This document shows, piece after piece, positions 5,935 through 8,652 of a stretch of 64,000 nt of DNA. The stretch covers positions 124,001-188,000 of the forward strand of contig NZ_CABVHK010000007.1 of NCBI RefSeq assembly GCF_902497785.1, given 5' to 3'. The stretch is from Pseudomonas fluorescens (GTDB taxonomy: Bacteria; Pseudomonadota; Gammaproteobacteria; Pseudomonadales; Pseudomonadaceae). Below the pieces are notes generated by a model that was given only the letters and a program-made list of their open reading frames with translations, was not told the origin of the DNA and searched no databases. Positions within the stretch are counted from its first letter, which is position 1; every line of letters begins with the position of its first letter. The translations under genes and the position numbers were made by a program.

Positions 5935-7230
5935 ATGGACGTCACCGCAAAAATCAGCCTGGGCGATCCGCTGGAACCCGCACGCAAGGCCACCGCGCAG
6001 ATGCTGCAAGAGCGTGAACGCACGTACTCGCTGCCGCAGCCGTTTTACTCTGACGAGCGGCTGTTTGATATCGACATGCAGGAAATCTTCCAGAAAGAGT
6101 GGTTGATTGCCGGCATGGCCTGCGAGATCCCGAGCAAGGGCAACTACCTGACCCTGCAAGTCGGCAAGAACCCGATCATCGTGATTCGCGGCGCCGAAGG
6201 CGTGATCCATGCGTTCCACAACGTCTGCCGCCACCGCGGTTCGCGCCTGTGCACCAGTGAAAAAGGCAAGGTCGCCAAACTGGTCTGCCACTACCACCAG
6301 TGGACCTACGAACTGGACGGTCGCCTGTTGTTCGCCGGCACCGAAATGGGCGCCGATTTCGACATGAAGCAGTACGGCCTGAAACCGGTGAACGTGAAGA
6401 CCGCCGGCGGCTATGTCTTCATCAGCTTGTCGGAGAATCCGCCAGCCATTGATGACTTCCTGTCGACGCTGAACCATTACATGGAACCGTACGACATGGA
6501 GAACACCAAGGTGGCGATCACCACCACCTTGATGGAAAAGGCCAACTGGAAACTGGTGCTGGAAAACAACCGCGAGTGCTACCACTGCAACGCGTCGCAC
6601 CCGGAACTGCTGAAAACCCTGCTGGAATGGGACGACGTCACCGACCCGCGCGCCGACCAGGCGTTCAAGGACCACGTCGCCGCCTCCGCTGCCGCCTGGG
6701 AAGCCGAGAAGATTCCTTACGCCCACGCCAGCTTCGGCCTGCGTAACCGCATCGTGCGCATGCCGCTTCTCAAAGGCACCGTGTCGATGACCCTAGACGG
6801 CAAACAGGGCTGCGCGAAACTCATGGGCCGCATCAAGAACCCGGACCTCGGTTCGATGCGCATCCTGCACCTGCCGCACTCCTGGAACCACTGCATGGGC
6901 GACCACATCATCGTGTTCACCGTGTGGCCGATCAGTGCCCAGGAAACCATGGTCACCACCAAGTGGATCGTGCACAAGGATGCCGTTGAAGGCGTGGACT
7001 ATGACGTGGAGCGCATGCGCCAGGTCTGGGATGCGACCAATGATCAGGACCGGCGTCTGGCCGAAGAGAACCAGCGTGGGATCAATTCCACGGCGTACCA
7101 GCCCGGGCCTTATTCGAAGACCTACGAATTTGGTGTGGTGAATTTTGTGGATTGGTACAGCGAGCGGTTGCTGAACAATCTGGGCGCCGAGCCTGCGCCG
7201 TACCTCAAAGGCGTGCCGGTTCAGGGTTAA
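5935..7230 (+). CDS. gbcA: Glycine betaine demethylase, Rieske oxygenase subunit
   Basis: Catalytic subunit (431 residues) of the two-component monooxygenase that demethylates glycine betaine to dimethylglycine. The Rieske 2Fe-2S ligands are C98, H100, C118 and H121 (CRHRGSRLC ... CHYHQW). The mononuclear iron site is in NNRECYHCNASH, with H217 and H222; the third ligand is a downstream aspartate. The frame is open from 5536, but only the part from 5935 (MDVTAKISLG) is protein-like and it matches the family length; AGGAT lies 9 bases upstream. It works with gbcB on the other strand and is expected to be induced through GbdR. Confidence 0.97.
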   Translation: MDVTAKISLGDPLEPARKATAQMLQERERTYSLPQPFYSDERLFDIDMQEIFQKEWLIAGMACEIPSKGNYLTLQVGKNPIIVIRGAEGVIHAFHNVCRHRGSRLCTSEKGKVAKLVCHYHQWTYELDGRLLFAGTEMGADFDMKQYGLKPVNVKTAGGYVFISLSENPPAIDDFLSTLNHYMEPYDMENTKVAITTTLMEKANWKLVLENNRECYHCNASHPELLKTLLEWDDVTDPRADQAFKDHVAASAAAWEAEKIPYAHASFGLRNRIVRMPLLKGTVSMTLDGKQGCAKLMGRIKNPDLGSMRILHLPHSWNHCMGDHIIVFTVWPISAQETMVTTKWIVHKDAVEGVDYDVERMRQVWDATNDQDRRLAEENQRGINSTAYQPGPYSKTYEFGVVNFVDWYSERLLNNLGAEPAPYLKGVPVQG

Positions 7231-7235
7231 ATAAA

Positions 7236-7315
7236 GATCAAAAGATCGCAGCCTGCGGCAGCTCCTACAGGGTTTTGTGTACACCTGTAGGAGCTGCCGC
7301 AGGCTGCGATCTTTT
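7236..7315. repeat. REP palindrome, family A, tails outward
   Basis: Family A pair in the reverse arrangement (GATCAAAAGATCGCAGCCTG ... CAGGCTGCGATCTTTTT), directly after the gbcA stop. With its T-run it could also end gbcA transcription. Confidence 0.88.
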
Positions 7316-7410
7316 TAGTCGCAACACTCATACCGCTTAGAACTGTACGAAATATGATCTATTGCGTTCAGCGCTATACCCACCGTGGCCCCCAGCCATC
7401 CGCAAACAAG

Positions 7411-7419
7411 TTATCCACA
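7411..7419 (+). promoter_or_regulatory. Consensus DnaA box, copy 1
   Basis: TTATCCACA, preceded by CGCAAACAAG and followed by CCTCCGCCCACAGTTAATGG. First of four units with the same orientation. Confidence 0.7.
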
Positions 7420-7592
7420 CCTCCGCCCACAGTTAATGGGGACAAGTGCAGGGTGAAGGATAACTTTCCCCGCAGAAAGCCAAGAAAATCCGTGACTTAT
7501 CCAAAAGCCGGTTTTTAACGTTCGATTGGTCGTTTTTTAATCTAACGCTTTAAAGCCACGTGCGACGTGGCCTGTAGAAGATCGCAAACACG

Positions 7593-7601
7593 TTATCCAC
7601 A
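7593..7601 (+). promoter_or_regulatory. Consensus DnaA box, copy 2
   Basis: TTATCCACA, preceded by CGCAAACACG and followed by GAAGCGCCAACAGACTTTGG, 182 bp after copy 1. Confidence 0.7.
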
Positions 7602-7774
7602 GAAGCGCCAACAGACTTTGGGGGCAACTTCGGCACATCTGTGGAAAACTGCTGCAAGCCTCGATAATTCAACGTTTGCGAGCCGTTTCAGACCCTGAAT
7701 TGACAAATTGATCAAATTTCACACAACTGCCTGAACACCCCGAATCATAAGGCCTGCAGCGGACAGCGAACATC

Positions 7775-7783
7775 TTATCCACA
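7775..7783 (+). promoter_or_regulatory. Consensus DnaA box, copy 3
   Basis: TTATCCACA, preceded by AGCGAACATC and followed by GAAGCGCCAACAGAGATTGG, exactly 182 bp after copy 2. Confidence 0.7.
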
Positions 7784-7934
7784 GAAGCGCCAACAGAGAT
7801 TGGGGGCAACTATTTTCCCCCGCATGGCTTTTTCCTCAGAAAAAGTCCGTAAAAACCGTAAGTTAGGTTGTGTATTTTTTGTACGGAGGCTTGCAGGGCT
7901 TGATCTGCCTGGGGAACAGCGAGGAACAAACATG

Positions 7935-7943
7935 TTATCCACA
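7935..7943 (+). promoter_or_regulatory. Consensus DnaA box, copy 4
   Basis: TTATCCACA, preceded by AACAAACATG and followed by GAACGGCTAACAGGGATTGT, 160 bp after copy 3; the most diverged unit. Confidence 0.68.
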
Positions 7944-7978
7944 GAACGGCTAACAGGGATTGTGGGTAAAACCGTCCA

Positions 7979-8069
7979 CTGTGGGAGCGAGCCTGCTCGC
8001 GAAGCAATTTTTCAGGCGAAATAGATGTTGGATGTCCGTCCGTCATCGCGAGCAGGCTCGCTCCCACAG
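7979..8069. repeat. REP palindrome, family B
   Basis: Arms CTGTGGGAGCGAGCCTGCTC and the complementary GAGCAGGCTCGCTCCCACAG, just beyond the last DnaA-box unit and before the convergent acetyltransferase gene. Confidence 0.9.
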
Positions 8070-8085
8070 GATTCGCGGTTCTGCC

Positions 8086-8652
8086 CTATGGCCGATACAT
8101 CAGATAAGCCTCACCCGTCACCCGAATCATCGGATGTGGCGTGATTTGGCAGGTATCGACGATACGAAAGCCATGCCGTTCATAGAACCGACGCGCACCG
8201 GTGTTCGCGGCGTAGTCGATCAGGCTCAGGCCATTGAGCCCCAGCTGATTGGCACGGTCGTAGGCGTAGGCAAGAAATTGTTGGCCCAGCCCCTGATTGC
8301 GCCAGCCTTCATGCAGCGCCAGGCTGGAAATGTACAGCGTGTCGGGGATTTCCATCGTGGCGTAGGGTGCCAGGACTGGATCGGTGACCGGCTCCGCGAA
8401 GGGATCGTGACGCATCACGTAGCTGTGCAGCATGCCGATGACCTGGCCGCCGGCCTCGGCGATCAGGCAGTTCTGCCAGGAGAAATCCACATCGTCACGG
8501 GCGTAGCGCTGGGCGCCGACGTCGAGCAGATCCTGGCCGGGCTCTGCCAGCTGGCTCCAGATGTAATCTGCAGCGCCTTCGGATGAAATCTGGAATAAAC
8601 GAGCAATCTCCCGCGCATCACTGCGCAGGGCAGAACGAAATTCAACAGCCAT
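8086..8652 (-). CDS. GNAT family N-acetyltransferase
   Basis: Acetyl-CoA-dependent N-acyltransferase fold of 188 residues. The acetyl-CoA pyrophosphate loop is in LALHEGWRNQGLGQQFLAYA (Q/R-x-x-G-x-G/A type), and the C-terminal strand NTGARRFYERHGFRIVDT is typical. The substrate cannot be told from sequence. It stands alone between REP elements, next to the electron-transfer flavoprotein genes but probably not in their operon, because a family A REP and 105 bp separate it from etfB. Confidence 0.88.
   Translation of the reverse strand: MAVEFRSALRSDAREIARLFQISSEGAADYIWSQLAEPGQDLLDVGAQRYARDDVDFSWQNCLIAEAGGQVIGMLHSYVMRHDPFAEPVTDPVLAPYATMEIPDTLYISSLALHEGWRNQGLGQQFLAYAYDRANQLGLNGLSLIDYAANTGARRFYERHGFRIVDTCQITPHPMIRVTGEAYLMYRP

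Follow-up and report, generated by a model that had tools for sequence, protein, structure and literature searches.

Organization of the DnaA-box array

The window analyzed here is a stretch of 64,000 nucleotides from a Pseudomonas fluorescens genome. It contains an 855-bp gap (7231-8085) between two genes that end towards each other: a Rieske oxygenase alpha-subunit gene with its stop at 7230, which we take to be gbcA, as in an earlier reading of the same DNA, and a GNAT acetyltransferase gene with its stop at 8086. Four perfect DnaA boxes, TTATCCACA, lie in this gap at 7411, 7593, 7775 and 7935, all on the + strand, at spacings of 182, 182 and 160 bp and within a 61-nt repeat family. The earlier note, which had described the gap after gbcA, the four same-strand boxes with these spacings and a fifth, near-consensus box on the other strand at 7640, was accurate on each point. 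The fifth box is TTTTCCACA at 7640-7648 (-), and 19 of the 30 arrays compared below keep a TTWTCCACA at this same position (+47 after unit 2). Allowing at most one mismatch, the window has 22 DnaA-like sites; 100 shuffles averaged 5.94 and never exceeded 14, so the cluster of boxes is not due to chance.

Features of the locus (window coordinates, strand where assigned; n/9, matches to the DnaA-box consensus)
5935-7230, +: flanking gene, gbcA-type Rieske oxygenase alpha subunit, ending towards the array; Pfam domains from 5938-7230
7345-7969, +: whole array, four modules
7345-7359: Fis-type motif, module 1, offset -66
7371-7398, +: upstream (UP) element, module 1, diverged
7411-7419, +: strong DnaA box, module 1, DARS position III, TTATCCACA
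7423-7431, +: weak site, position II, module 1, 5/9
7437-7445, -: inverted site, position I, module 1, 7/9
7528-7542: Fis-type motif, module 2, offset -65
7553-7580, +: UP element, module 2
7593-7601, +: strong DnaA box, module 2, position III
7605-7613, +: weak site, position II, module 2, 4/9
7619-7627, -: inverted site, position I, module 2, 6/9
7640-7648, -: extra DnaA box TTTTCCACA, conserved +47 after module 2
7710-7724: Fis-type motif, module 3, offset -65
7735-7762, +: UP element, module 3
7775-7783, +: strong DnaA box, module 3, position III
7787-7795, +: weak site, position II, module 3, 4/9
7801-7809, -: inverted site, position I, module 3, 6/9
7870-7884: Fis-type motif, module 4, offset -65
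7895-7922, +: UP element, module 4
7935-7943, +: strong DnaA box, module 4, position III
7947-7955, +: weak site, position II, module 4, 3/9
7961-7969, -: inverted site, position I, module 4, TTACCCACA, 8/9
8086-8652, -: flanking gene, GNAT acetyltransferase, ending towards the array

Perfect hairpins border the array on both sides, at 7240-7315 (32-nt arms) and 7979-8069 (24-nt arms); these may be repeat elements, or terminators that shield the array from transcription. A search of 7100-8200 against Rfam (E ≤ 1) returned six matches, none of which reached its gathering score or overlapped the array; they fall at 7229-7324 (hairpin) and 7118-7145 (gbcA coding sequence), and a small-RNA reading was dropped. 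The element CCGTNASTTA is found upstream of modules 2 and 4 (7490-7499 and 7856-7865), at offsets of -103 and -79, with 18 matches at each offset in the 30 arrays. Perfect DnaA boxes also occur within two etf genes (window 9050, 10000 and 10259); many of the relatives compared have them at comparable positions, a conservation that may be that of the protein only.

Architecture of the module

The 50-bp element of the earlier note is a real repeat, but only part of a module of ~100 bp, as conservation extends further upstream. The consensus of 132 units, drawn from 151 box contexts after 19 without ACAG or ACAA 7-15 bases after the box were dropped, shows conservation around the strong box between -40 and +36, and aligning 19 arrays revealed an additional conserved AT-rich element upstream. 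Each module has a Fis-type motif at -65/-66, a GC-rich element from -40 (the UP element) and three DnaA sites in the order strong (+), 3 bp, weak (+), 5 bp, weak to moderate (-). Of the letters that had been reported to flank every box, the preceding AAAC is replaced by GAAC in the third unit, and the extension GAAGCGCCAACAG is absent after box 1 and present as a variant after box 4.

The three sites follow the layout of the Escherichia coli DARS loci, with box I opposite to II and III and gaps of 5 and 3 bp; a passage of PMC5742627 describes this orientation and a spacing identical in both DARSs. As read from the E. coli genome, DARS1 (mirrored) is TAATACACA-3-TTATCCACA-5-inverted TTATCCACT and DARS2 is TCTTACACC-3-TTATCCACA-5-inverted TTATCCCAG. 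Matches to the consensus at III, II and I number 9, 3-5 and 6-8 in the window modules, 7, 9 and 8 in DARS1, and 5, 9 and 6 in DARS2. Site I of the array is thus near consensus (7, 6, 6 and 8 of 9), and its weakness does not count against a DARS since site I of DARS2 is itself 6/9. By these counts, the real difference between the array modules and a DARS is the perfect box at III instead of II.

For position-specific counts we used 113 units from 30 arrays, chosen for ACA at +18 and AACA or AACG at -6, with loci of fewer than three such units left out. Conservation at these ACA- and AACA-type positions and part of the signal at site II are therefore by construction; the Fis-type motif, the UP element and site I were not among the selection criteria. 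In these units the inverted 9-mer at +26 matches the box at 6.7 of 9 positions on average, and none of the 25 other offsets examined exceeds 3.8. A further 38 units of the same layout come from other loci and other genera, chosen for TTAT[CTG]CACA, ACA at +18 and TG at +26; three of them (L170) belong to an other-genus array that may itself be the array locus, and relatives are not independent in any of these counts. E. coli DnaA favors pairs of boxes with a gap of 2 or 3 bp (PMC11317965); the strong box and the partner 3 bp from it agree with this preference, as perhaps does the AACA 2 bp upstream of the strong box.

Copies in the genome and conservation among relatives

A strict extended pattern with at most one mismatch occurs four times in the 6.64-Mb genome from which the window derives, three of these in the array, compared with two occurrences of a reversed control. 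A 77-nt sequence model built from 66 units detected nine matches at E ≤ 0.001 and ten at E ≤ 0.01: four modules in the array (locus A), two on contig C13 (locus B), two on C26 (locus C) and one on C6 (locus D), plus a tenth, weak match on C8 (E 0.003). So few modules make a small family of sites and not an ordinary repeat, and the dispersed repeat family that the earlier note had named beforehand as a finding that would refute its reading did not appear among these nine modules at four loci and the one match at E 0.003.

The array is conserved in other Pseudomonas at the gbcA locus: at least three perfect boxes within 700 bp were found in 38 of 80 gbcA loci from named genomes, the best 80 of 597 candidate stretches. 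The other gbcA loci are not all true absences, because inserted genes can push the array beyond the 5 kb fetched; in locus L021 it begins 4.6 kb away from gbcA. Many of the gbcA loci have an etf gene with its end at the far side of the array. A scan of the family gave matches at E ≤ 0.001, many of them weak, in 243 of 298 genomes. The order-wide scan matched 21 of 194 genomes, including 14 outside the family with one weak match each. Within the genus, 96 genomes were matched, 63 of them at E ≤ 1e-10, and at least seven had none. The multi-copy module family is therefore typical of Pseudomonadaceae. In genome G115, from a different genus, seven weaker modules follow one another at C1:6007455-6008516, ~48 kb from dnaA.

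Motifs and spacing around the strong boxes

The Fis core motif takes the form GNNYRNNWNNYRNNC. In its relaxed version it is found at -65/-66 in 112 of the 113 units, while 48 other offsets gave two matches in all; its background is 0.0022 per base. The strict form has 61 matches in the 113 upstream stretches, compared with a mean of 3.3 and a maximum of 10 after shuffling. All four window units carry the relaxed form and one the strict form, and at loci B-D of three genomes the strict form stands at -65 for two of eight boxes. A similar pattern, GnnYAnnnnnTRnnC, is given in a figure legend of PMC10380432. A Fis homologue is encoded in the genome itself; it shares 59% identity with the E. coli protein over residues 21-96 (E 1e-24). 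A candidate counterpart of the Fis site of DARS2, for which Fis is named as a cofactor in a passage of PMC4245941, is present in the array as a motif at a fixed offset.

In a consensus test only, the strict IHF consensus occurs in none of the 82 spacers between boxes, where only 0.56 would be expected by chance, and with one mismatch no position between boxes is enriched. Both DARS2 and datA need IHF. An alternative reading of the spacer motif as an I-site or IHF-like sequence was dropped, as the fixed 15-bp Fis pattern fits better.

The 83 spacings between neighboring modules in the 30 arrays fall at 128-129, 150, 159-161, 171-172, 181-183 and 191-194 bp, with single cases of 217 and 354 bp. 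A period of 10.75 bp gives the 82 spacings shorter than 250 bp a vector length of 0.94, compared with 0.32 at a period of 9 and 0.30 at 13. With each of the 16 distinct values counted once, the vector length is 0.83, a figure that not one of 5000 random sets of 16 attained at periods of 9-13; when values one base apart are merged into seven clusters, an equally good result came from 63 of 5000 random sets. Helical spacing of the modules is likely, with support limited by the small number of independent events and the non-independence of related species.

A canonical DARS-like core and the UP element

The pattern TTATCCACA-5-TGTGGATAA, with at most one mismatch, is found at exactly one place and with identical sequence in the window's genome and in seven of eight same-genus relatives; G042, the ninth same-genus genome, has two one-mismatch places instead, and three genomes of other genera have one to three places with the pattern. 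At the eight exact loci, CTGTTCACA stands 3 bp away on the III side. This canonical core has two perfect boxes, its position II box being perfect, unlike that of the array modules. In the window's genome it lies at C18:47102-47124 (locus L159), between an FKBP-type isomerase gene and a DUF1232 gene.

We scored the surroundings of these cores with a UP matrix trained on array units only. At the predicted offset, and taking the better of two orientations, the match ranks first or second of 5990 positions in all eight exact canonical loci; it had been seen by eye before scoring, and the E. coli offset had not been viewed beforehand. The Fis-type motif is also present in all eight, at -66. Ranks at the other cores are 1362 of 5990 in G042, 42 in G115, 11 in G121 and 8 in G195, and in E. 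coli the same offset ranks 2 of 3946 at DARS1 and 2227 of 8946 at DARS2. In a class-wide scan, the I-II core pattern occurs in 93 of 274 genomes, with no reversed control among the rows listed. Scoring 59 core orientations from 30 loci gave better UP ranks on the III-like side (27) than for the others (32; p = 0.004), and the top 2.1%, a cut taken from the sorted ranks afterwards, holds seven of the 27 III-like orientations and none of the 32 others. The UP element thus accompanies some, not all, DARS-type cores. By itself it is only an imperfect dyad, as its best 5-bp stem, picked among many, averages 2.9 of 5 pairs.

Outside the array, the second-best UP match in the window and 13 further stretches is at L095:6998 (score 14.0), after L098:5251 (14.4). 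It lies upstream of dnaA, in the presumed oriC of the window's genome, and no strong box stands at the module offset from it.

Many proteobacteria are said in a review to have sequences resembling DARS1 and DARS2 (PMC10380432, citing Fujimitsu 2009), and the canonical core may already be listed in the cited work.

Genomic position and distribution of DnaA boxes

In the assembly containing the window, the array is on contig C7 and dnaA on contig C8. In G071, a complete relative of 5,986,236 bp with dnaA at 54, the distance from dnaA to the array is 499 kb; locus B is 640 kb away on the other side, locus D 811 kb away on the array's side and the canonical core 2.01 Mb away on the side of B. In G275, also complete, dnaA is at 5,709,323, the array, B, D and C are 504, 641, 823 and 766 kb from it, and the canonical core is 1.85 Mb away on the array's side. 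At ~0.50 Mb from dnaA, the array is not oriC in these two relatives, and the earlier statement that it does not adjoin dnaA holds there as it does across the two contigs. That the boxes are intergenic and in tandem might suggest a DnaA-regulated promoter region, a second origin, a small-RNA cluster or a mobile repeat, and PMC4403523 describes a second autonomously replicating fragment in P. aeruginosa. Since both neighbors are transcribed towards the array, no promoter of theirs is expected in it; together with the ~0.5 Mb to dnaA in the two relatives, the lack of any Rfam match over the array at E ≤ 1 and a total of nine or ten modules, this makes all of these explanations very improbable.

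The position bears differently on a datA-like role, in which an early-duplicated cluster would bind much DnaA and remove ATP-DnaA by titration or ATP hydrolysis. The E. coli DARS loci lie mid-arm, which the array does not in G071 and G275; in these two relatives it is a DnaA-box cluster near but outside oriC, as is datA (94.7 min, with oriC at 84.6 min, or ~0.47 Mb). The same-strand boxes of datA are 162 bp apart, within the 128-194 bp usual in the arrays, and the AACA with 2 bp before the strong box resembles the datA double box TTGTAAACA-gag-TTATCCACA. Weak sites beside a strong one could also favor ATP-DnaA, which according to a passage of PMC12371093 binds low-affinity boxes better. Set against this are the absence of IHF-type enrichment between the boxes and the UP element and Fis-type motif in common with the canonical DARS-like core, and we consider a datA-like role possible but rather unlikely. 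For either kind of locus, PMC5010248 states that E. coli holds the relative distances of datA and the DARSs and that transcription through them damages their function, which fits the place of the array between convergent genes.

Perfect DnaA boxes number 130 in the window's genome, compared with 16 for the reversed pattern. Of the 134 in G071, 124 are no further than 1.4 Mb from dnaA and the remaining 3.19 Mb has 10 (control, 18 in total), where 100 of the 134 are listed and the last 34 are taken to lie past the last one listed, at 5.56 Mb; the origin-side count is 110 if a 15-copy, 630-bp tandem repeat is counted once. This distribution, and the similar accumulation of boxes towards oriC reported for E. 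coli and Salmonella in a passage of PMC12371093, would agree with passive titration, the array being one of many origin-proximal sites that merely soak up DnaA. Titration alone does not call for fixed positions of the Fis-type motif, UP element and inverted site, or for helical spacing, and we regard it as improbable.

In the G071 repeat (C1:141182-150010), 15 copies of TTATCCACA follow each other at intervals of exactly 630 bp, the pattern of a tandem repeat. Among 100 of the 130 boxes in the window's genome, at least 41 are on the 285-kb dnaA contig C8 and at least 19 on the 306-kb C7.

A candidate DARS-type control locus

On balance we lean, by no great measure, towards reading the array as a non-coding, DnaA-binding replication-control locus of four tandem DARS-type modules. 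Of the two suggestions in the earlier note, the datA/DARS-like locus gains from the DARS geometry and the near-helical spacing kept in many Pseudomonas, while the DnaA-controlled promoter region loses to the convergence of the flanking genes. Under the DARS-type reading, DnaA on the perfect box III would recruit more DnaA onto the weak site II and the weak to moderate site I, with Fis bound ~65 bp upstream of the strong box and a further factor on the GC-rich element between them. The tendency to whole-turn spacing suggests that the modules would face one side of the DNA and could assemble into a single large complex. The analogy with DARS makes release of ADP from DnaA, and so the re-formation of ATP-DnaA, the likeliest effect, and the early duplication of the locus, at ~0.5 Mb from the origin, would set its timing. 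The sequences themselves establish the architecture, its conservation and spacing, the position in two relatives and the layout in common with the canonical core; binding by DnaA and Fis, assembly of a complex and the direction of any effect we infer.

The DARS-type effect is favored because the composite layout is common to the canonical core and partly to DARS1. Counting against it are site II at 3-5/9 in the window when it is perfect in both E. coli DARSs, the missing UP match at DARS2 and the G042 core, an array nearer the origin than the mid-arm DARS loci, a UP element in the top 2.1% for only seven of 27 III-like core orientations, no strict IHF consensus in 82 spacers (0.56 expected) and a strict Fis form at two of eight boxes of loci B-D. 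As the strong box is shifted to III, a datA-type or purely titrating role is, for the two jointly, a serious possibility that falls somewhat short of probable.

Building on the DARS-type reading, we tentatively propose, as an idea still less secure, that Pseudomonadaceae have a second class of DARS geometry, in which the strong box has moved from II to III and the locus has become multi-copy and nearer to the origin. Its modules would form one phased complex dependent on Fis and a UP factor, opposing or balancing the canonical locus, and the UP element would be an old DARS1 cofactor site shared with E. coli. To our knowledge, the adjustment of DnaA activity is poorly known outside E. coli and its kin, and in the literature searched, which covers few subscription journals, no title or abstract opening describes a datA or DARS in Pseudomonas. 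The genus here gains candidate replication-control sites, the canonical DARS-like core among them. The finding also points to an element beside DARS1 in E. coli itself which, if the proposal is true, has been an unrecognised cofactor site.

Comparison with known systems

In comparison with DARS1 of E. coli (bioD-uvrB), the array has the same three-site core with gaps of 5 and 3 bp, a UP match at equal offset from III and an intergenic place. DARS1 differs in being a single module as opposed to four, in its perfect box at II with III at 7/9, in a location ~1.5 Mb from oriC by map positions, and in that no Fis-type motif was found upstream. DARS2 (mutH region) has the core gaps and orientations of the array modules; it is likewise a single module with the perfect box at II, has no UP match, needs IHF and has its Fis sites elsewhere.

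The datA locus resembles the array in its place near oriC, its same-strand boxes 162 bp apart and its double box with an AACA-ending partner. It differs in having an IHF site, where the array shows no IHF enrichment, and, by eye only, no DARS-type trio or UP element was recognised in it. Outside these E. coli loci, chromosomal DnaA-box clusters of Bacillus subtilis and Streptomyces coelicolor are termed datA-analogous in a passage of PMC5742627 and are said there to repress untimely initiation; like the array, as far as this published description goes, they are clusters of DnaA boxes on the chromosome.
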